Origin: Natrinema versiforme
GTDB lineage: Archaea; Halobacteriota; Halobacteria; Halobacteriales; Natrialbaceae
Direction of reading: 5' to 3'
NCBI RefSeq assembly: GCF_005576615.1
Contig: NZ_CP040330.1
Location: forward strand, 2,108,001 to 2,172,000
Length of the DNA stretch: 64,000 bases
Shown here in pieces: positions 7,258 through 50,341 of the stretch; position 1 is the first letter of the stretch; each line of letters starts with the position of its first letter. The position numbers and the translations under genes were made by a program. Under the pieces are notes generated by a model. That model was not told where the DNA came from, did no database searches, and was given only the letters and a program-made list of their open reading frames with translations.

Positions 7258-8418
7258 ATGAAACTCGCACTCATCGGCTTCGGTCAGGCAGGCGGGAAGG
7301 TAGTCGACGAGTTCCTGGCGTTCGACGACTCGATCGGCGGCGGCTTCATCGAATCGGCGATCGCGGTCAACTCGGCGACGACGGACCTCAAGGGACTCGA
7401 GAACGTATCGGACGAGAACCGCGTCCTCATCGGACAGGCGCGCGTGAAAGGCCACGGCGTCGGCGCGGACAACGAACTCGGCGCGGAAGTCGCCGAGGCG
7501 GACATCGACGAGATTCAGGGCGCGATCGACCGGGTCCCGGTCCACGAGATCGACGCGTTCCTGATCGTCGCCGGCATGGGCGGCGGCACCGGGTCGGGCG
7601 GCGCGCCCGTCCTCGCGAAACACCTCCAGCGGATCTACACCCAGCCGGTCTACGGGCTCGGCATCCTCCCCGGGACCGACGAGGGCGGGATCTACACGCT
7701 CAACGCCGCCCGATCGTTCCAGACGTTCGTCACCGAGGTCGACAACCTGCTCGTCTTCGACAACGACGTCTGGCGCAGCGCCGGCGAATCCGTCGAGGGC
7801 GGCTACGACCGCATCAACCGTGAAATCGTCGAGCGGTTCGGCCTCCTCTTCGCCGCCGGCGAGGTCGAACAGGGCGATCACGTCGCCGAGAGCGTCGTCG
7901 ACTCGAGCGAGATCATCAACACGCTCTCGGGCGGCGGCGTCTCCACGATCGGCTACGCCAGCGAGGTCGTCGAGACGGACGACGGCCTGCTCTCCTCGCT
8001 GACCGGCGGCGACGAGTTCGACGAGGGCGCGGCGACGAACCGGATGACCAGCCTCGTCCGCAAGGCTACCCTCGGACGGCTCACGCTGCCGTGTGATGTC
8101 GGCAGCACCGACCGCGGGCTGGTCGTCGCCACCGGTCCGCCGAGCCAGCTCAACCGCAAGGGCGTCGAGCGCGGCCGCCAGTGGCTCGAGGACGAGACCG
8201 GGAGCATGGAGATCCGCGGCGGCGATTACCCGATCCCCAACCGGGATGAAGTCGGCGCGATCGCCCTGCTGTCGGGTGTGACGGACGTGCCGCGGATCGA
8301 CCAGCTCCAGCAGGTCGCGATCGAGGCCCAGGAGACGACCGAGAACGTCCGGGCCAGCGCCGAAGAAGACTTCGCGTCGCTGATGGACACCGGTGGCGAA
8401 CTCGACGCGCTGTTCTAG
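7258..8418 (+). CDS. cetZ: Tubulin-like protein CetZ
   Basis: A 386-residue tubulin/FtsZ-superfamily GTPase. The N-terminal nucleotide-binding loop LIGFGQAGGK and the tubulin signature GGGTGSGG (residues 108-115) are intact. The length and the archaeal-specific sequence place it with CetZ, the family that controls cell shape and motility in Haloferax, rather than with FtsZ, which directs division. It would polymerise under the cell membrane. It stands alone with opposite-strand neighbours. The CetZ subgroup cannot be assigned by eye. Confidence 0.92.
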   Translation: MKLALIGFGQAGGKVVDEFLAFDDSIGGGFIESAIAVNSATTDLKGLENVSDENRVLIGQARVKGHGVGADNELGAEVAEADIDEIQGAIDRVPVHEIDAFLIVAGMGGGTGSGGAPVLAKHLQRIYTQPVYGLGILPGTDEGGIYTLNAARSFQTFVTEVDNLLVFDNDVWRSAGESVEGGYDRINREIVERFGLLFAAGEVEQGDHVAESVVDSSEIINTLSGGGVSTIGYASEVVETDDGLLSSLTGGDEFDEGAATNRMTSLVRKATLGRLTLPCDVGSTDRGLVVATGPPSQLNRKGVERGRQWLEDETGSMEIRGGDYPIPNRDEVGAIALLSGVTDVPRIDQLQQVAIEAQETTENVRASAEEDFASLMDTGGELDALF

Positions 8419-13261: not shown

Positions 13262-14497
13262 TTAGTCCCCGTCCTCGTCCTCGAGCACGGCTAACCGCGA
13301 GTCCCGTAGGAGCACCTTCCTGACGATCGAGGGGTTCTCGAGCAGGCGGTGTTTCGCGTGTGCACCGCGGCCGCGACCGCGGCCCTCACGTTCCGACTGG
13401 ATCACGTTGAGGAAGTTCTGTTCCTGCAGAATTTCCTGTACTCGCCGTTCGGAAAGCACATCGAAGTCAAGTCGGCTGGCGACCTCCTTGTACTGGTTGT
13501 AGATGATCTTCGTCGGGAACTCCTTCTCCGAGCTGTTCTCGGTCAGCAGCGTCAGCGAGTAAAGGATCGCCTTGGCCTGCTGTGGCGACCCCTCGATCAA
13601 TTCGTTGAACCGGTCGGCCTCGGTCTTCTCCTTGGCGTCGCGGACGTGGTCCGCCGTGACCCGCGTATCGTTTCGCTTCTTCGCGATGCGCCCCGCGTTC
13701 CGGAGGATGTCGATCGCCTTGCGCGCGTCGCCGTGTTCCTGGGCGGCCAGTGCGGCCGTGAGCGGAATCACATCGTCGGAGAGCACCCCGTCGTGGAAGG
13801 CGTCGCGGCGCTTCTCGAGAATTTCGACGAGTTGGTTCGCGTCGTACGGCGAGAAGACGAGTTCGTCCCGCGAGAGACTCGATTTGACCCGCTCGGAGAG
13901 GTGATCGGGGAAGTCGATCTTGTTCGAGATGCCGATGATACCGATACTCGAGTCCGAAATGCGTCGGTTCTCGCCCGCACGGGAGAGTTTGCGGAGGACC
14001 TCGTCGTCCTCGAGCATGTCGATCTCGTCTAAGATGACGATGGTGACGTCGGTACAGTGGTCGACGGCCTGCCAGAGGCGCTTGTAGTAGTCGCCGGTGC
14101 CGAGGCCGCGGTCGGGGACGGTGACCCCGCTCGCGTCGGGTTCGTTGACGATCTGGGCGATCGTCTTGACGATGGACGCCTCGGTGTTCTGCTCGCCGCA
14201 GTCGATGAAGGCGTACTTGACCGTGATATCGTCGTGGCCGGCCTCGGTGATCACTCGCTGTGTCACCGACCGCGAGATGAGTGATTTGCCGGTGCCGGTC
14301 TTGCCGAAGATGAACAGGTGGTTGGGCTCGCTCCCGAAGATCGCCGGATTCAGGGCGTCCGCAACCCGTTGCATCTGCTCGTCGCGACCGACGATCCGAT
14401 CCGGACCAGGCAGGTGCGTGATCTCGAGCAGGCGCTCGTCGGCGAAAACCGGATCGTCGTACCGAAAGAGCGGGTCTCGATCGTCGTTGGCGGACAT
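13262..14497 (-). CDS. orc1: Origin recognition protein Orc1/Cdc6
   Basis: A 411-residue archaeal initiator. The AAA+ core shows Walker A GKTGTGKS (65-72), Walker B ILDEID (155-160), a sensor segment GISNKID and the arginine-rich ARKAID region; the C-terminal winged helix ends in an Arg/Gly-rich basic loop (residues about 368-385) and LLENPSIVRKVLL. It binds origin recognition boxes and loads MCM. A Shine-Dalgarno-like GGAGG lies 13 bases before ATG 14497 and a TATA-like aaataaa at 14528-14534. Its start faces the putative origin at 14640-15230. The exact orc paralogue number cannot be given. Confidence 0.94.
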   Translation of the reverse strand: MSANDDRDPLFRYDDPVFADERLLEITHLPGPDRIVGRDEQMQRVADALNPAIFGSEPNHLFIFGKTGTGKSLISRSVTQRVITEAGHDDITVKYAFIDCGEQNTEASIVKTIAQIVNEPDASGVTVPDRGLGTGDYYKRLWQAVDHCTDVTIVILDEIDMLEDDEVLRKLSRAGENRRISDSSIGIIGISNKIDFPDHLSERVKSSLSRDELVFSPYDANQLVEILEKRRDAFHDGVLSDDVIPLTAALAAQEHGDARKAIDILRNAGRIAKKRNDTRVTADHVRDAKEKTEADRFNELIEGSPQQAKAILYSLTLLTENSSEKEFPTKIIYNQYKEVASRLDFDVLSERRVQEILQEQNFLNVIQSEREGRGRGRGAHAKHRLLENPSIVRKVLLRDSRLAVLEDEDGD

Positions 14498-14667
14498 TGC
14501 AGTACCCGCCTCCTTCCAACTGGATTGAAATAAAGATGTGGGGATCGATCGCGGGTGTAAACCACCCGTCTCAGCGACTCGAGTGAGGGACAACGGCGGC
14601 ATGACTCATATACAGTCCCGGCGCCTCCCTCGCGCTTCTAACCGTGGATCCGGGCGCGATCGGAGAC

Positions 14668-14690
14668 GGACACCCCCGTCGCGGATGTAA
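14668..14690 (+). repeat. Origin-recognition-box-like repeat 1
   Basis: Forward copy with core ACACCCCCGTCGCG followed by gATGTAA. It differs from copies 2 and 3 in having GGATGTAA where they have GTTTGTAA. Confidence 0.75.
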
Positions 14691-14836: not shown

Positions 14837-14863
14837 GGACACCCACCCCCGTCGCGTTTGTAA
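14837..14863 (+). repeat. Origin-recognition-box-like repeat 2
   Basis: Forward copy with core CACCCCCGTCGCGTTTGTAA and four additional bases within the 5' GGACACC end compared with copy 1. Confidence 0.78.
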
Positions 14864-14988
14864 CGGCGAGACGGTGGGGATGGGGACGAGTTATCCGGAG
14901 ATATCCGGCGATTGATGCCGATTTCAGGACGATTTTACAGCCGCGACAACGGTGTGTTCCGAAACAATACCGCCACACATTATTCGAC

Positions 14989-15013
14989 TTACAAACGCGA
15001 GGGGGGTGTGTCC
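14989..15013 (-). repeat. Origin-recognition-box-like repeat 3, inverted
   Basis: On the minus strand it reads GGACACAC, a C-run, TCGCGTTTGTAA, closely matching copy 2. It faces copies 1 and 2, the inverted arrangement typical of archaeal ORBs that bound the unwinding zone. Confidence 0.78.
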
Positions 15014-15109
15014 CTCTCTCATGTGTCGTGTAGCGATTACGACTCGGGCAATAGTCCGGATATACCGGTATAAGTTTGTTCTAACAGCGGGTACGTATTT
15101 TCCACCCTC

Positions 15110-15230
15110 CATACCTATCTCTATGTAGACAATAACTTCTAGAATCTAGTTACTAGTACTCACTAGTGAGAAAACAAGAACAACAAAACAAGTACAACAA
15201 GTATAGTAAGATAAACTCTAGCATGAACAG
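15110..15230. other. AT-rich block with clustered CTAG sites, candidate unwinding element
   Basis: About 120 bases of low G+C in a GC-rich genome. It contains CTAG at 15139, 15146, 15153, 15163 and 15218, and a run without any T at about 15165-15192, made mostly of AAC/AAG units. It lies just beyond the inverted ORB-like repeat, where a duplex-unwinding element is expected. Confidence 0.65.
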
Positions 15231-15417: not shown

Positions 15418-16185
15418 ATGAGTGACGACACGTCGGATACCGGGCGTCCCGCGGATCGAACGCCGCCCGCCGTCGCCGTCGTCGACGCCCAGTCGCCCGG
15501 CAACGTCGGAACGATCGCCCGCGCGATGAAGAACTTCGGCTTCGAGGACCTCCTGCTCGTCGATCCGCCGGAACTCGATCCCGATGGCGAGGCCTACGGC
15601 TACGCGGGCCACGCTCGAGAGGATATTCTCCCGAACGCCACGGAGATCAGTTTCGACCACCTCGCCGAGAACTACCACACGATCGGCTGTACCGCGGTGA
15701 CCAACGAGGACGACCACGGCCACGTTCGATTCCCCTACTCGACGCCCGCCGATCTGGCCGACCGGCTGCCGACCGTCGAGGCACCGACCGCGCTCGTCTT
15801 CGGCCGCGAACGGGTCGGCCTGACGAACGAAGAACTCTCGCGAATCGACGAGATCTGCTCGATTCCCGCGAACGCCGAATACCCCGTCCTCAATCTCGGG
15901 CAGGCCGCGACGATCACGCTCTACGAACTCCGATCGCTCGCCCTCGGGGACGACGACACGCAGCTGCCCGACCTCGAGCGCGTCCGCGCCCCCGAGCCCA
16001 CCGTCGATCGGCTCTACGACCAGTGGGCGGCACTCCTCGAGGAGATCAACCGCCCGGAGGAAAAGCGCGACAAGACGATGCGGATGCTCCGCCGGGTGTT
16101 CGGCCGGGCCGATCTGACCGAGCGCGAGGCGAATACGATGCTGGGGCTCCTCCGGCGAGCGACCGAGCGCCCGGCCGAGGACTGA
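15418..16185 (+). CDS. trmJ: tRNA 2'-O-methyltransferase TrmJ-like (SpoU/SPOUT)
   Basis: A 255-residue SPOUT-fold RNA methyltransferase. Knot motifs are all present: NVGTIARAMKNFGF (motif 1), LVFGRERVGLTNEEL (motif 2) and PANAEYPVLNLGQAATI (motif 3). A C-terminal helical tail follows, as in TrmJ, which methylates ribose 32 of tRNAs using S-adenosylmethionine. The archaeal enzyme is mostly specific for cytidine 32. It starts just downstream of the origin region and is transcribed away from it. Confidence 0.88.
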   Translation: MSDDTSDTGRPADRTPPAVAVVDAQSPGNVGTIARAMKNFGFEDLLLVDPPELDPDGEAYGYAGHAREDILPNATEISFDHLAENYHTIGCTAVTNEDDHGHVRFPYSTPADLADRLPTVEAPTALVFGRERVGLTNEELSRIDEICSIPANAEYPVLNLGQAATITLYELRSLALGDDDTQLPDLERVRAPEPTVDRLYDQWAALLEEINRPEEKRDKTMRMLRRVFGRADLTEREANTMLGLLRRATERPAED

Positions 16186-43997: not shown

Positions 43998-45598
43998 GGT
44001 CGCTCCACCCGGCGTCAGTCGCCGTCCGATCGCTCTCGCGGAGCCTCAACACCGGCTTCCTGTTCTTCGTCGTCGGCATCGTCGTCTCGCCGGGCGGGAA
44101 CGGGACCGATCTGCTGTCGGTCGGCGCGCTCGTCGCGATCGGCATCATCACAGGAATCATCTACGAGTTCGCGTACTACCGACGGTTCCGGTACGAACTC
44201 ACCGACGACACATTCGACGTCACCTCCGGGGTGTTCGCTCGCAGGGACCGCGAACTCCCCGTCGGACGGATCCAGAACGTCGATATCAGACAGAACGTGA
44301 TCGGTCGCGTTCTCGGTATCGCCGCCGTCCACATCGAGACCGCGGGCGGTGGCCAGACCGAGGTCAGCCTGCAGTACGTCGCCGAGGACGAGGCCCACCG
44401 GCTCAGGCGACGACTCCGGCGCGGCGCGAGCGCCGAAACTGCCGACGCGACCGACTCGAGTCCCACCGAAACGGGAGCGCAGGCGACGGAGAGCGAACGG
44501 GAGATCGACGAAGACGAGCAACTCCTGTTCGAGATTCGGCCGCACGAACTCGCGATTCTGAGTATCTTCACCATCGATCCGGGGGCGAGTCTGCTGGGCG
44601 GCATCGCGCTCTCGTTCGCCAGCGGCTTCGATCCCGCGACGTTGCTCCCGACCGACCGCATCGCGGGGCTCCCGGGTCCGGAATCGGGATTGCTCACGCT
44701 CGCGTGGGGACTCGTCCTCTTCTTGCTCGCCGCGTGGGTCATCAGCGCGGCGCTTACCTTCACCCGGTACTACGGCTTCCGACTCACCCGCGTCGGCGAC
44801 GAACTCTACTACGAACGCGGGCTCCTCCAGCGCTACAGCGGGACGATCCCCCTCGAGAAGGTTCAGACGCTCACCGTCTCGGAGTCGATCCCGTTCCGGT
44901 GGTTCGGCTACGCCGCACTGAGCGTCGAGACGGCCGGCTACGCGCCCGGCCAGTCCGACTCCCGCGGGACGGAGTCCGCGATTCCGCTCGCCGACGCCGA
45001 TCGCGTGGCCGAACTCGCGCGGGCGATCGAACCGTTCGGCCCGATCGACCTCGAGTCCCCGCCGCGACGGGCGCGCGAGCGGTACGCGGTCCGGTATTCG
45101 CTCGTCGTCGCCGCCATCGTCGGCGGTGCGTACGTGCTGGCGCGGTATACGGCGGTCGTCCGGCAGTGGTACGTCCTCGCCGTGCTCGCCGTCCTCGTCC
45201 CGGTCGCCGCTCATCTGAAGTGGTCGAACCGAGGGTACCGAATCGGTGACCGATACTTTCTCACCCGCACGGGCTTCTGGCGACGGACGACCAAAGTCGT
45301 CCCCTACTACCGGGTGCAGGCCGTCATCCATCAGGCGACGATCTTCCAGCGTCGACGCCGACTCGCCAGCGTGACGGCCGACACCGCAAGCTCCGCGTCG
45401 CTCCTCGGGCGGGCCGCGATCGCCTACGACGTGGACGAAAAGCGGGGACTCGAGATGCAGGCCCTCATCGAAGAGCGATTACAGGACCGACTCCGCGCGC
45501 GCCAGCGCGAACGGACGGTCGGACAGTGGTTTGGTGACTCGAGTGGCGACGAGTCGGCGGACGACGAGCCGTCGACTGAGCCCGGCGACGACGGGTGA
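43994..45598 (+). CDS. Tandem bacterial PH domain membrane protein (YdbT-like), copy 2
   Basis: A 534-residue paralogue of the gene at 34070 with three bPH2 modules: FDVTSGVFARRDRELPVGRIQNVDI, ELYYERGLLQRYSGTIPLEKVQTLTV and FLTRTGFWRRTTKVVPYYRVQAV. The linker between the first two is shorter than in copy 1 (about 45 residues) and the C-terminus is an acidic tail. It directly precedes the accessory region. Confidence 0.88.
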   Translation: MRSLHPASVAVRSLSRSLNTGFLFFVVGIVVSPGGNGTDLLSVGALVAIGIITGIIYEFAYYRRFRYELTDDTFDVTSGVFARRDRELPVGRIQNVDIRQNVIGRVLGIAAVHIETAGGGQTEVSLQYVAEDEAHRLRRRLRRGASAETADATDSSPTETGAQATESEREIDEDEQLLFEIRPHELAILSIFTIDPGASLLGGIALSFASGFDPATLLPTDRIAGLPGPESGLLTLAWGLVLFLLAAWVISAALTFTRYYGFRLTRVGDELYYERGLLQRYSGTIPLEKVQTLTVSESIPFRWFGYAALSVETAGYAPGQSDSRGTESAIPLADADRVAELARAIEPFGPIDLESPPRRARERYAVRYSLVVAAIVGGAYVLARYTAVVRQWYVLAVLAVLVPVAAHLKWSNRGYRIGDRYFLTRTGFWRRTTKVVPYYRVQAVIHQATIFQRRRRLASVTADTASSASLLGRAAIAYDVDEKRGLEMQALIEERLQDRLRARQRERTVGQWFGDSSGDESADDEPSTEPGDDG

Positions 45599-45651
45599 GC
45601 ACCGATATCGGGCAGCGAGGACCGATGCCGGCCGCTCGAGAGGGTAGTTAC

Positions 45652-45790
45652 ATGACGCAGACTCCGAAACGGCCATCGGAAAGAGCGACGAGCACACGAA
45701 AGTCGCGATCGACTGCCAGGGCGGCGGACGCTACACAGCGTTCACCGCGGGGGCGCTCCAGCGACTCCTTCCGGCGATGTTGGCCCGATA
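45652..45790 (+). pseudogene. Patatin-like phospholipase, N-terminal fragment
   Basis: In the frame through 45696 the sequence reads KVAIDCQGGGRYTAFTAGAL, the oxyanion-hole and first-helix motif of haloarchaeal patatin-like phospholipases, then ends without the GxSxG and Asp motifs. The likely start ATG at 45652 lies in another frame, so a frameshift separates the start from the motif. The match stops near 45790, where the fragment of a second gene begins on the other strand. Confidence 0.6.
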
Positions 45791-45799
45791 CCGGAGTCC

Positions 45800-45947
45800 C
45801 CTGCTCGGCCGCCGCGTCGACGGCGCCGGTCCGGTCAGCGTACCCCTGACTGCCGTCGGCCAGTATATTGCCGTTTCGGTGGCGCAGTCGCCAGCGGTGG
45901 TCGCCGCCCTTGTCCTCGTACTGTTCGAAAGCGCCTACTAAGTCCAC
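45800..45947 (-). pseudogene. YegP/DUF1508-like protein, N-terminal fragment
   Basis: From a GTG at 45947 the frame reads FEQYEDKGGDHRWRLRHRNG and NILADGSQGYADRTGAVDA, the DUF1508 (YegP/HVO_2922-like) strand pattern. About 45 residues match; from about 45800 the frame continues as unrelated Arg/Glu-rich shadow sequence over the patatin fragment. Only the first part of the domain repeat survives. Confidence 0.6.
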
Positions 45948-45950
45948 AAC

Positions 45951-46055
45951 CTCCCACCAGATCTGTTTTATCGCCGTGCGTATCCGAATTGTAACTTCGA
46001 GTGTTGACCGCGGGGAGGATCCACTCTACGGAAAAATGGATGTGGCTGGTGGGAG
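45951..46055. repeat. 10-base inverted repeat at the left edge of the accessory region
   Basis: CTCCCACCAG at 45951-45960 and its exact inverse CTGGTGGGAG at 46046-46055 enclose about 85 AT-richer bases. It sits between the gene scar and the HNH-recombinase gene. It could be a recombinase site, an operator or a remnant end. No direct partner copy was found elsewhere by eye. Confidence 0.4.
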
Positions 46056-46150
46056 TAGTCACGGTCCACAATCAGACGGAAATCGATATAGCCATATATG
46101 ATTTACAAACTGTCGTACACCTTGAAGTGAAAAGGCGATAATGAATTACT

Positions 46151-47017
46151 ATGGGTGAGCGACTTCACGGACACGATTGGTTCAAGATCCGTGAGCAAGT
46201 ACTGGAACGTGATAACGGGAGTTGTCGAAACTGTGGGGAAGGAAGTAATTTAGTCGTCCACCATATCGTCCCCATTAGCGGTCAGGGAACGAATCAAGTG
46301 ACGAATTTGGTCACCCTTTGTCGGCCGTGTCATCGGTCCGCCCATAACCACCGATGGAAGGAAGAGAGTGATTCGTCACCGGAATCAACTTCACGGAAAA
46401 TTTTCTCTACAGAGGCAATTTCGACCGTTTGTAGGTCTACTCGGCATCCGCTTCATCTTGCTCTTATCGGTATTGTCGCAAAAACCGGAATCGGAGTTGG
46501 CGAGATATGCAACCTCGATCTCACGGACGTTGCTCTCGTCAAAAGTGATACTACAGACACCCTCCCGGAACTGTCCGGATCTGGCCTACAGATACGATAT
46601 GGTGGAGCAATCCCGTATAGCAATCGTCGTGAGAGAAAGGAACGCACCGTCATTCCGGCCGATTCCGAACTGGAAGACATCTTGCTGAGGTGGATAGCAA
46701 TTCGGCCGGATAATCCGCATACCGATGCCCTATTCGTTAAAACGAAGGAAAAATGGGGTGAGCGGATCGATCCATCCACAGTCCGATACGTATTTGAGAA
46801 AATAGGACGGGATCACGGGCTGTATTCCGAAAACAATGAGATGAAGAACTTAACCCCGGTTTCTTTGCGATACTTCTTCGAAGAACGATTTAATGGCCGT
46901 CCGGTCCATCGAAAGTACATCCTCGGTCAAGGAGCAGGTGCGGACATTGATTATCTATCGCTTGAAGACGATTACCGGAAAAACGTATTCAAAATATCTG
47001 ACCAGGGTTCGACGTGA
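46151..47017 (+). CDS. HNH endonuclease fused to a catalytically altered tyrosine recombinase domain
   Basis: A 288-residue fusion. Residues 14-66 are a complete HNH nuclease: Cys25/Cys28, VVHHIV (His37-38), Asn52, Cys57/Cys60 and His61. From about residue 95 the protein is clearly homologous to the neighbouring integrase (TRHPLHLALIGI, KTGIGVGEICNLDL, RWIAIRPD, KWGERID). Catalytic positions are changed: the first Arg is Gly115, the HxxR box is V237-x-x-R240, the third-box His is absent, and the nucleophilic Tyr position is Val/Phe (279-280). It lacks the usual core-binding domain, replaced by HNH. It is AT-rich relative to the genome. It overlaps the integrase gene tail to tail by 29 bases. 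Confidence 0.85.
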   Translation: MGERLHGHDWFKIREQVLERDNGSCRNCGEGSNLVVHHIVPISGQGTNQVTNLVTLCRPCHRSAHNHRWKEESDSSPESTSRKIFSTEAISTVCRSTRHPLHLALIGIVAKTGIGVGEICNLDLTDVALVKSDTTDTLPELSGSGLQIRYGGAIPYSNRRERKERTVIPADSELEDILLRWIAIRPDNPHTDALFVKTKEKWGERIDPSTVRYVFEKIGRDHGLYSENNEMKNLTPVSLRYFFEERFNGRPVHRKYILGQGAGADIDYLSLEDDYRKNVFKISDQGST

Positions 47018-48017
47018 GCGAGTAAATATTATCGAGATACGTCTCACGAACCCGATCCCCCCAGTTGTGGGTGTAGGTGTCGATGATATCGCTTGCAACG
47101 TCGCCACGGAGATACTTCACAACGCCACGATCGCCGGTCCGATCCCGTAGATGTGTTGTGAAGAAGTGCCGGAAGTAGTGGGGCGTCACATTCTCTGCCG
47201 CCCCGCCACCGGTTCGATACCACCCGTACTCAGTGGCGTACTGTTCGACGATGTGATGCACCATATCGATCGTAATCCGTTCTCCCCATCGGTCGACAGT
47301 CCCAGCGAACAGCGGATCGGTTTCGGAAACTGAATCAGGCCGAATCGCGAGCCAGCGAAGAAGTGCATTCTCGAGTTCGCTATCGACAGGAATGATAGTT
47401 TCACGTTTACGCTTGTTGGAGGCTGTTCGCACGGCTCCTTCCGATTCTTTTCCATACGAATGATCCGGCGAAATGTAGATCGAATTCGGTCCGGCGTCAA
47501 TTTGAGCTCGTGGATGCCAGTAGGCGGCTTCGTGATCGAGATTTAGATCGATTAGATCGAGGTTGCACAGCTCTCCAGACCGAATCCCCGTCTTCAATAA
47601 CGTCAATATAACCGCCCTATGAAGGGGATGACGGACGGTTGCGACGAAGTCGCGCATATCTGTGAGCTGAATGTCTCTGCGAGATGGATTCGACTCAATC
47701 GACTCGTTCATTTCCTCTAAAACGAGTTCCATTGGGTTCTCGTCGTGTCGTCCGACGCGAACGAGATATCCATAAAAGCGATTCAAGTACGATGCGTAAC
47801 TCGCGACCGTACTCTCTGCGTATTGTGAACGCAGCTCATGAGTGAAGGCCATACAATCCCGATAGCCGGCTTCTGTAGGCGTTTTTCCGAACCGATCGGA
47901 GAGGAACCCCTCAAAACGAGAAAGAACGCGTTGATACGCTGAAACTGTCCGTTTATTACGACCGTGTTGCTCGATATCCGCGAGGAAGTAGTCGATCGAC
48001 TCTGCTCGTTCACTCAT
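46989..48017 (-). CDS. Tyrosine recombinase (XerC/D-like integrase), intact
   Basis: A 342-residue integrase. The core-binding domain occupies residues about 5-95; the catalytic domain has R146 (KTGIRSGEL), Lys in the NKRKRET turn, H280-x-x-R283 (PHYFRHF), H317 (YTHNW) and Tyr327 (RETYL). All catalytic residues are present, so it should cut and rejoin DNA. The start overlaps the stop of the DUF5805-like gene by eight bases. Its codons are AT-richer than the flanking core genes. Confidence 0.93.
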   Translation of the reverse strand: MSERAESIDYFLADIEQHGRNKRTVSAYQRVLSRFEGFLSDRFGKTPTEAGYRDCMAFTHELRSQYAESTVASYASYLNRFYGYLVRVGRHDENPMELVLEEMNESIESNPSRRDIQLTDMRDFVATVRHPLHRAVILTLLKTGIRSGELCNLDLIDLNLDHEAAYWHPRAQIDAGPNSIYISPDHSYGKESEGAVRTASNKRKRETIIPVDSELENALLRWLAIRPDSVSETDPLFAGTVDRWGERITIDMVHHIVEQYATEYGWYRTGGGAAENVTPHYFRHFFTTHLRDRTGDRGVVKYLRGDVASDIIDTYTHNWGDRVRETYLDNIYSLTSNPGQIF

Positions 48018-48399
48018 TGCTGGTCCGAACGTATCCTCCCTTACGACCACTGTATCGAACGAGATTGTCGTCTTGAAGCTGTCCTAACGCCGTGTCTACG
48101 TCCTCTTCTATATCGTCAATGAGTCTGTCAACGAGTTCGTCCCAATCCAAGACGCCTTCCCGCTCGAGTAGAGCGAGAATTCGATCCTGAAAGCCGTCGT
48201 CATTCGACTCCGTTGACTCCTCAGCATTGGAAACCAGGTTGTCCATTGAGGGGATACCGAAATCACTGCGGCCGGCTTGAACCATCGTTCGGACGAACTC
48301 GCTCTGGCTCATCTCGAGTTCGTCAGCGTGTTCAGCCCACTTCTCCTTCTGATACTGCGGGACGTAGGTTTTCACGGCAGTTCGATCATCGGAAGCCAT
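48010..48399 (-). CDS. DUF5805-like protein, partner of the integrase
   Basis: A 129-residue protein. The N-terminal third (TAVKTYVPQYQKEKWAEHADE, then MSQSEFVRTMVQAG) resembles a ribbon-helix-helix DNA-binding unit; the C-terminal half (DRILALLEREGVLDWDELV, then LGQLQDDNLVRYSGRKGGYV) looks like a winged helix. DUF5805 is my recollection for this integrase-associated family. It is coupled to the integrase and may act as its regulator or directionality factor. Confidence 0.75.
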   Translation of the reverse strand: MASDDRTAVKTYVPQYQKEKWAEHADELEMSQSEFVRTMVQAGRSDFGIPSMDNLVSNAEESTESNDDGFQDRILALLEREGVLDWDELVDRLIDDIEEDVDTALGQLQDDNLVRYSGRKGGYVRTSNE

Positions 48400-48441
48400 A
48401 CGCCCACAATTGAACTGTCGTCACTTCAGTCTTCCCTACTT

Positions 48442-48488
48442 TCACAAATAAGGGTATTTATTTGGTACCGTAGTGCCACAGATGGCAC
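48442..48488. promoter_or_regulatory. Palindromes in the promoter of the DUF5805-integrase operon
   Basis: CAAATAA (48445-48451) is inverted as TTATTTG (48458-48464), and GTGCCA (48473-48478) is inverted as TGGCAC (48483-48488). A TCACAAATAA at 48442 recurs directly at 48547. The operon starts at 48399, so these sit 40-90 bases upstream, fitting autoregulation by the ribbon-helix-helix-like protein. Confidence 0.55.
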
Positions 48489-48654
48489 AATATGAATATA
48501 TTATTTGTTATCGCGGCCCCATAGTTGCTACCGAATAGTACTGCCATCACAAATAAATATATGAGTGTCACCGGGAGTAGCTCAAGCCGAAAGATAGGCG
48601 ATTGGAGACAAGAATTGTCACAGAAATTATAATCCGTTCCGAAAGCGTTACCCC

Positions 48655-48857
48655 CAGGGTGACGACCTCGAGACACGGGTCCTCGAATTGCTGGAATCCG
48701 ATCCGTACTCTGGGAGGAACTCCTCGAGGCGGTCTCGGACGACATCGAGTCGCGATTGGACGAGACGCTCGAGGATCTCCAGTCGGCAAACCGGATTCGA
48801 TACAGCGGTCGCCACGGCGGGTACACGACGATCGACGGTGGTGGCGATGGCGACTGA
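48655..48857 (+). pseudogene. DUF5805-like gene remnant, second copy
   Basis: From 48661 the frame reads DDLETRVLELLESDPYS, then a one-base shift near 48706-48711, then WEELLEAVSDDIESRLDE and RIRYSGRHGGYTT to the stop at 48857. This matches the C-terminal half of the intact protein at 48010-48399. The N-terminal DNA-binding half is missing. Confidence 0.8.
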
Positions 48858-49898
48858 ATCCGGGACCGACACCCCGGAGGACGTGACCGACCCATCGAGT
48901 ACTTCCTCGACGACCAGCGCTATCACGGCAAGAGCGACCGCACGCTCGAGGCCTACGAACGGGTGCTCCGGCAGTTCGAGGCCTTCGTCCGCGAGCGCTT
49001 CGACGCGGACGCGGTCGGTGCGGCCGAGCGACGGGAGTGTATGGCCTGGATTCACTCGCTGCGCGGCGAGTTCGAGTCGAGTACGATCGCGAGCTACGCG
49101 TCCTATCTCAACCGATTCTACGACTACATGACCCGCGTCGGTGTCTTCGATGCCAACCCGATGGCGCTCGTCATGGAGGAGATGTCCGAATCGATCGATA
49201 CCAACCCGACGAGACGGGATCTCTCCGTCGGCGAAATGCGGTCGTTCCTCGGTTCGATCGACCATCCCCTCGAGCGGGCCGTTATCGTTACCCTCCTGAA
49301 GACGGGAATGCGCGTCGGAGAGCTGTGTAACCTCGATCTGCGGGATCTCCATCTCGAGTCCGTGCAGGCGGAACTCGACTGCGAGTGGTCTCCGCGCGTC
49401 GGACTCGAGCGCCGGCCGTCGTCGCTGTTCGTTTCCTCCGAGCCGACCCGCGGGACGGCCGTCAACGGCGAGGAACGGACGGCCTCGAACAAGCGAAAGC
49501 GGGACACGGTCGTCCCCGTCGACGCCGAACTACAGCGGGCGCTACTCGAGTGGCTGGCGATCCGTCCGGACGCGATTTCGACGGCGCGGCCGCTCTTTCT
49601 CGATACCAGAGACTCGTGGGGTGAACGGCTCGAGCCGTCGGACGTCCGCTATATCGTCGAAAAACACGCTCGTGACTACGGCTGGTACCGGACCGGTGGC
49701 GGGACCCAAGAGAACGTCACCCCCCACTACTTCCGGCACTTCTTCACCACGCACCTGCGGGATCGGACCGGCGACCGGGGGATCGTCCAGTACCTCCGCG
49801 GCGACGTCGCCGGCGACGTGATCGATACCTATACCCACAACTGGGGCGACCGCGTTCGCGAGACCTACCTCGAGAACATCTACGCTATCACCGAGTAG
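48847..49898 (+). pseudogene. Tyrosine recombinase, second copy, frameshifted at its N-terminus
   Basis: ATG 48847 overlaps the DUF5805 remnant as in the intact cassette, but the frame is broken near 48891: the start frame reads ESGTDTPEDVTDP and the integrase continues as IEYFLDDQRYHGKSDRTLE in another frame. From there it is open to 49898 with all catalytic residues (KTGMRVGEL, PHYFRHF, YTHNW, RETYL). A shorter product from GTG 48963 would lack part of the core-binding domain. Base composition is GC-rich, unlike the intact copy. Confidence 0.85.
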
Positions 49899-50341
49899 GG
49901 GAATCAGTCCCGCTGGTTCTCACTGTCGGCGACCCGAGTCACGGTTGGGGCTGCAGACGGGCGATTTCGGCTGTCCGACGCATATTACTGTAGATATTTA
50001 CTACAAGTATCCGTAACCGGCGCGCTCGAGACAGTACAGATAAATTTCATACCGCTATATCGACTTCGCCCCCGAATGGTGAACGCGATCGGTCGTCGAC
50101 ACCGTCGAAGGAACCGTCCGCTGCATCGGTGTCGACATCGATAGCGAAGTGAGTCCCCGGAAGCGGAACGTTCTCCAGTCACGACCGTAGCAGGGGTGAG
50201 ACCGTGGATTCTCAACCAACGACGGAGCAGTACGGCGAGGTGGGCCGGCAGTACCGACTTCGGCTACCGTAGACTCTCCCTTCGGTCAGTTCGACGGAGC
50301 GACCGGCAGAAAGCGGCATCGACGATCCGAAAGAACGCAGG
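49899..50341. other. Intergenic region right of the integrase copies
   Basis: No supported gene in 440 bases. An AT-rich island is present at about 49982-50065 (tattactgtagatatttacta). Short frames such as VDTVEGTVRC (about 50095-50130) and DSQPTTEQYGEVGRQYRL (from 50200) look like scraps of older genes but were not identified. It may contain the right edge of an integrated element. Confidence 0.4.

Follow-up and report, generated by a model that had tools for sequence, protein, structure and literature searches.

A conserved CTAG cluster at a second, largely family-confined predicted replication origin of Natrinema versiforme

The GATC sites of the Escherichia coli origin oriC overlap the AT-rich part of the origin, and SeqA prefers sites positioned on one face of the helix. 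We know of no SeqA-like reader for CTAG. The role of Dam and SeqA at oriC is described in PMC6471742 and PMC5867850. In Haloarchaea, clusters of CTAG are located upstream of orc1/cdc6 genes at several origins per genome, as presented by Blow et al. 2016 (PLoS Genet e1005854, Fig 6D). The clusters correlate with an orphan enzyme, and the same paper proposes a role in replication and already likens the class to the GATC cluster of E. coli. The motif is printed there as m4CATG in the text and as CTAG in the figure legend. In Haloferax volcanii, one of three origins is CTAG-dense, and deletion of the enzyme caused no growth defect (Ouellette et al. 2018, PMC5867850). The function of the CTAG enzyme is called open by Fullmer et al. 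2019 (PMC6471742) and by a 2023 survey (PMC10609329). In the text passages covered here, the published accounts give CTAG density only; a layout of the sites relative to the ORBs at base level, a fixed spacing of the oriC1 sites, and their loss together with the origin were found neither there nor among the literature matches listed.

Here, we analyze a 64-kb window (G000:C2:2108001-2172000) of the 4.67 Mb genome of Natrinema versiforme. CTAG is rare in the window, as noted in an earlier sequence-only reading of this DNA: it occurs eight times, compared with a mean of 88.6 expected from 100 dinucleotide shuffles. Five of the eight sites, at 15139, 15146, 15153, 15163, and 15218, are packed into 83 bp from end to end, and the remaining three, at 8415, 17678, and 55620, are single sites. 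The sequence-only reading had placed all of them correctly. The five sites form a peak of CTAG density in the non-coding DNA upstream of an orc1/cdc6 gene, where the following features are arranged:

13262-14497, minus strand: initiator gene of the orc1/cdc6 family, 411 aa when read from the start common to relatives (Pfam Cdc6_lid, Cdc6_C; TIGR02928)
14622-14641, minus strand: degenerate ORB-like box, 3 mismatches
14671-14690, minus strand: ORB-like box, 0 mismatches
14844-14863, minus strand: ORB-like box, 0 mismatches
14935-14954, plus strand: ORB-like box, 2 mismatches
14989-15008, plus strand: ORB-like box, 0 mismatches to the consensus TTACANNCGCGANNGGGGTG, G-string towards the cluster, also in family loci
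15096-15215, no strand: candidate DNA unwinding element, an AT-rich block of 32% GC, lowest-GC 120 bp of the 64 kb
15139-15221, no strand: CTAG cluster, exact matches, kept at orthologous origins
15159-15170, no strand: perfect palindrome of 12 bp, CTCACTAGTGAG, with the fourth CTAG at its centre
15418-16185, plus strand: conserved neighbouring gene on the side of the cluster, for an RNA methyltransferase of the SpoU family (Pfam SpoU_methylase)

Inverted G-string ORB repeats (five boxes) and an AT-rich element beside orc1/cdc6 are combined at the locus as in haloarchaeal origins. The five CTAGs are positioned inside or just past the AT-richest 120 bp. By nearest-neighbour energies, the 80 bp of lowest stability in the window begin at 15136 and overlap the AT-rich block, which on grounds of stability is plausibly the unwinding element. 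The CTAG block begins about 130 bp past the last ORB-like box, on the G-string side of that box. It belongs to the origin region, yet is located outside the ORB array. The earlier assignment of the cluster to the likely unwinding element is plausible, in that the sites occupy the least stable DNA of the orc1-adjacent origin, but they are not enclosed by inverted ORBs as at oriC1. The gap between the ORB array and the CTAG block has a median of 144 bp (interquartile range 109-175) across 44 loci of the origin family, a figure that leaves out L078 and L081, with gaps above 600 bp. The SpoU motif is present at 38 of 50 loci of this family.

The window origin is a second, largely family-confined predicted origin and not the universal oriC1 (G000:C2:178-543), from which it differs in belonging to a family-limited Orc. 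The window Orc has at least 97% identity within the genus, 81-97% in the family, and 65-74% in a few other genera (e.g. Halorussus), beyond which it is matched only by paralogues with about 50% identity or less. To judge from these identities, it is a family-limited initiator under strong constraint. The GC skew over the 64 kb has no clear switch at 15 kb, and is uninformative as proof of an active origin.

The cluster is a well-supported addition to the class already published by Blow et al. 2016, with which it shares the motif, the non-coding position upstream of orc1/cdc6, the occurrence at several origins, and the correlation with an enzyme (HG1 in PMC10609329, cHG U in PMC6471742). What appears to be new is the layout of the sites at base level, the fixed spacing of those at oriC1, and the disappearance of the array where oriC1 is dismantled. 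Haloferax volcanii, with its orphan CTAG m4C enzyme HVO_0794 (Zim), resembles N. versiforme, for which such an enzyme is predicted, and also has a CTAG-dense origin, oriC2, and differs in that only this origin is dense, that GATC is dense there too, and that the enzyme can be deleted without a growth defect (PMC5867850). The parallel to the E. coli GATC cluster, which the sequence-only reading proposed and Blow et al. 2016 had drawn before, extends to layout only: palindromic four-base targets of an orphan methyltransferase, predicted ones in N. versiforme, are packed at an origin and overlap its AT-rich part. By homology and literature, the modification would be m4C and not the m6A of Dam; CTAG is a rare word across the genome and GATC a common one; orc1 and ORBs take the place of DnaA boxes; and a CTAG cluster is not known to be sequestered. 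The window origin has a cluster of predicted methylation targets, as in a Dam/SeqA-type system, but not the arrangement on one helix face that would suit a SeqA-like protein, since its sites have no helical phase (mean cosine -0.10 at 10.5 bp, 859 pairs), in contrast to the phased sites of oriC1.

Composition alone does not yield the cluster. Mononucleotide shuffling of its 150-bp tile produced at least five CTAGs in 13 of 200,000 trials. Counting CTAG in the window and in a background sample gives the eight sites of the former and 21 in 123,082 bp of the latter (0.171 per kb). The background sample joins the window, less the intergenic region, to three 20-kb stretches taken from this genome. 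None of the 818 background tiles of 150 bp contains three or more CTAGs. Clusters of this kind could also have been common in unrelated AT-rich spacers, a caveat attached to the original observation; however, the 18 AT-rich background tiles (GC at most 50%) contain one CTAG in total, and no CTAG occurs in any of the 24 further 120-bp stretches that were listed as the window's lowest in GC. Three CTAGs separated by gaps of at most 15 bp occur at five places in the genome, compared to 997 places for the reversed control pattern, which contains GATC.

The cluster is present at the orthologous origins of relatives, the second point on which the earlier interpretation depended. Between three and ten CTAGs within 150 bp are found at the orthologous place in all 30 close loci, and at least three within 150 bp in 45 of 49 named Natrialbaceae loci; the two counts are not additive, because the genomes of L056-L068 and L070 mostly coincide with some of those behind L008-L036. 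The family count and that outside the family together used 58 of 72 Orc loci, the other 14 being paralogues or remote. Among the four exceptions in the family, L093 and L094 have two sites each, and L087 and L098 lack a markedly AT-rich block as well (lowest GC 53% and 59%). Few genomes outside the family carry the Orc gene, and eight of nine such loci have fewer than three sites, one of the eight, L109, being truncated. The cluster and the AT-rich block tend to occur together.

The exact positions of the CTAGs shift between species, and the cluster is conserved despite this turnover of sites. In aligned pairs with at least 90% identity, CTAG is kept in 32 of 38 cases, compared to 674 of 964 for neighbouring 4-mers, and at 80-90% identity in 87 of 127 compared to 1169 of 2726; these are the two upper identity bins, the lower ones being biased in that the aligner itself lines up CTAGs. 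The pairwise retention and spacing analyses left out L037, L087, L098, and loci with fewer than two CTAGs. A functionless chance cluster might be imagined in a block of 32% GC, given that CTAG is half A+T. It is refuted by the persistence of the cluster at 30 of 30 close loci and 45 of 49 family loci, to which the rarity of such clusters among the shuffles can be added, and its probability is negligible.

The AT-richest 150 bp of 50 loci (the 49 family loci and the window), picked regardless of CTAG, contain 263 CTAGs, compared to 27 expected from composition, a 9.7-fold enrichment. No other 4-mer is as enriched as CTAG in these AT-rich cores, and those next in rank, ACTA and TAGA, overlap it. 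Other permutations of its four letters reach at most about 2.0-fold; AT-richness therefore does not account for the cluster. The strong avoidance of CTAG in the rest of the genome raises the alternative that purging of the word is inactive at origins, where sites would pile up by default. Such relaxation would at most restore the level set by composition, which the cores greatly exceed, and AT-rich tiles away from origins remain near the background. We consider it very improbable; as a full explanation it is refuted, like plain AT-richness, by the core enrichment and the background tiles.

Four of the 15 Orc loci of the genome have at least three CTAGs within 150 bp upstream: oriC1, the window locus, C2:599754, and C3:6219. 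The other 11 have no upstream cluster, though some orc genes may not stand at an origin. Seven CTAGs are located between the inverted ORBs of oriC1 (C2:178-543), with start-to-start spacings of 20, 31, 10, 21, 21, and 21 bp, and three of them read CTAGTAA or CTAGCAA. Of 30 Natrialbaceae oriC1 loci, 25 keep the core CTAG-6-CTAG-17/18-CTAG-16/17-CTAG-4-RCGG in full, with spacers that average only 49-57% identity, which indicates that the spacing itself is conserved. The distances between pairs of oriC1 sites fit a period of 10.5 bp (mean cosine 0.58, 348 pairs); because the loci share descent, this statistic is not independent, and the constant spacing is the better evidence. The CTAGs of oriC1 form a rigid array at spacings of one to three helical turns. 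In two Natrinema genomes, G020 and G028 (L238 and L239), oriC1 has lost its AT-rich block and ORB pair and has no CTAG within 2 kb upstream, with the orc1 gene intact; their copies of the window origin (L011 and L012) keep seven CTAGs within 150 bp. The two genomes are a natural case of an array and an origin going together.

The CTAGs may work independently of methylation, either as a flexible, easily unstacked word that aids opening or as the core of a repeat such as CTAGTAA that is bound by a protein (initiator, helicase loader, or nucleoid protein). The rigid spacing of oriC1 between diverged spacers and its CTAGTAA/CTAGCAA sites suit a bound array, and at the window origin the cluster coincides with the least stable 80 bp and includes a perfect 12-bp palindrome around one CTAG. 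An opening aid alone should, however, have raised other weak words too, yet CTAG alone reaches the 9.7-fold enrichment, and genomes that lack the CTAG methyltransferase mostly keep the AT-rich block at oriC1 but not the CTAGs. A binding or opening element of this kind is rather unlikely in our estimate; it is the chief rival to a methylation-based role, and both could be true. No archaeal paper connecting CTAGTAA with a replication origin was recognized by title among the literature matches listed.

The genome encodes a 353-aa N6_N4_Mtase protein at G000:C2:1996347-1997405, which resembles the putative modification methylase structure 2zie (E 9.4e-34). It is an N4/N6 methyltransferase of orphan type whose distribution among genomes fits that of the haloarchaeal CTAG enzyme, in line with the remark of the sequence-only reading that many haloarchaea have an orphan CTAG methyltransferase. 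Its predicted CTAG specificity follows from its family and from a phyletic profile matching HG1, the m4C CTAG orphan group found in 163 of 181 Halobacteria and in 1 of 10 Halorubrum (PMC10609329). Across the order, 222 of 243 genomes encode the methyltransferase. Among the 21 others, every one of the 20 that were listed belongs to the coded family f5, 12 of them to genus g13; f5/g13 probably corresponds to the Halorubrum group. No restriction enzyme is present in the three adjacent ORFs scanned (an FMN reductase and two without a Pfam match); the orphan status of the enzyme otherwise rests on the literature (PMC6471742, PMC10609329).

The universal Orc1, present in 243 of 243 genomes, was used to locate oriC1, and at least three CTAGs in 150 bp upstream were counted as a cluster. 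Such a cluster is present in none of 19 genomes without the enzyme, out of the 21 that lack it, and in 48 of 71 with it (Fisher p 3e-8). The latter consist of 5 of 21 genomes from the same family (f5), 16 of 20 from other families, both sets picked from the listed rows, and 27 of 30 from the family of the window. Because the listed enzyme-lacking genomes all belong to f5, lineage confounds the pooled association, and within f5 it is weak (5 of 21 versus 0 of 19, Fisher p 0.049). Three enzyme-bearing g13 genomes have 0, 0, and 1 CTAG at oriC1. The 19 genomes include G313, counted as lacking the enzyme on account of its absence from the listed positives, and G220 and G127, with less than 800 bp of upstream sequence. 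For the 30 loci of the window's family, upstream means the first 1500 bases, which overrun the gene start in L148, L162, L170, and L174 at contig edges; L170 has almost no upstream sequence. The methyltransferase is also present in all 50 genomes tested, of the 58 window-Orc loci, including those without a cluster (L098 and most Halorussus), and so the enzyme is not sufficient for a cluster.

We hypothesize, giving the idea an even chance, that the cluster is a selected origin component, in which dense targets of the orphan m4C CTAG methyltransferase occupy the most easily melted DNA and hemimethylation limits re-firing. Between rounds of replication, the CTAGs would be fully methylated by the enzyme, and passage of the fork would render the whole cluster hemimethylated. 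Until remethylation, this state may serve as a signal that alters the opening of the block, or the binding of the initiator or another reader, and immediate re-firing would be limited. The methylation-linked control of initiation suggested by the sequence-only reading would operate at the window origin in this form. The anatomy and position of the cluster, its conservation, its enrichment beyond composition, the presence of the enzyme, the order-wide association with it, and the joint loss of array and origin are observed; marking of these sites by the enzyme, hemimethylation as the signal, and an effect on initiation are the proposed steps. Enzyme carriers without a cluster, the 11 Orc loci that lack one, the three tight triplets away from orc genes, the lineage confounding of the association, and, in H. 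volcanii, the single CTAG-dense origin and the unimpaired growth of the deletion strain (PMC5867850) count against a role of methylation. More tentatively, we speculate that Haloarchaea possess a Dam-like, methylation-timed CTAG switch of replication, composed of a rigid array with one- and two-turn spacings in the unwinding region between the inverted ORBs of oriC1 and of a dense, unphased version at a second, family-specific origin, which would be read in the hemimethylated state by the initiator or an archaeal counterpart of SeqA and dropped when either the enzyme or the origin disappears.

The role of the CTAG methyltransferase, which nearly all Haloarchaea carry, is described as open (PMC6471742, PMC10609329), and the window locus offers a compact test piece for it, as its five sites in 83 bp can be changed at constant AT content. 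The oriC1 array, with its fixed spacing, is a second test piece, and natural controls exist in species whose oriC1 is dismantled or that have no such enzyme. Timing of initiation by methylation, should it occur at this locus, would give Archaea a counterpart of Dam control.

About 200 bp separate the end of the cluster from the coding start of the SpoU-family gene, and a ctcctttttgcg-like line common to many species is located just downstream of the cluster. The CTAG sites may be methyl-sensitive operators of that gene or of orc1, with no direct role in initiation. In Haloferax lucertense SVX82, CTAG is over-represented just upstream of transcription starts (PMC11001535), and two CTAG triplets elsewhere in the N. 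versiforme genome precede ORFs, one of them a CBS-domain gene. A purely transcriptional element is nevertheless improbable, as clusters recur at origins with different Orc paralogues, and the oriC1 array is enclosed by inverted ORBs and disappears where the origin is dismantled and the orc1 gene remains. Two of the five tight CTAG triplets in the genome precede orc genes and three are not beside orc genes, and therefore CTAG clusters are not confined to origins. Rfam searches of the other triplet loci, oriC1, and the C2:599754 orc gene gave no match.

Just downstream of a CTAG, oriC1 has a motif like RCGGATACTGTT in most families (e.g. L128:437-448). A variant of the motif, GTCGAGGGTACTGTT, persists in many genomes that lack the CTAG enzyme, there with CTAG absent. 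A CTAG is found within 25 bp of this core motif in 20 of 20 loci of the family, 3 of 14 without the enzyme, and 6 of 13 and 9 of 12 in the other two groups, which is a hint only, the pattern having been found in 59 of 90 loci and widened by eye to fit several lineages. Because Halorubraceae often carry a GATC enzyme (PMC10609329), clustering of GATC was tested in genomes without the CTAG enzyme; GATC does not replace CTAG at their oriC1 core, where it occurs at 4.47 per kb compared to 7.79 per kb around it. Positions 44000-50000 of the window have a low GC content of about 55%, many AT-rich windows, and no CTAG, and are possibly a genomic island. Further CTAG triplets are located at L141:3416-3443 and L142:3399-3428, of which one directly precedes an ORF start codon near an integrase gene and one is on the 414-kb contig C4. 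Four CTAGs within 38 bp at L140:3430-3467 (G000:C2:787930-787967) are positioned ahead of the CBS-domain gene and possibly form a methyl-sensitive promoter.
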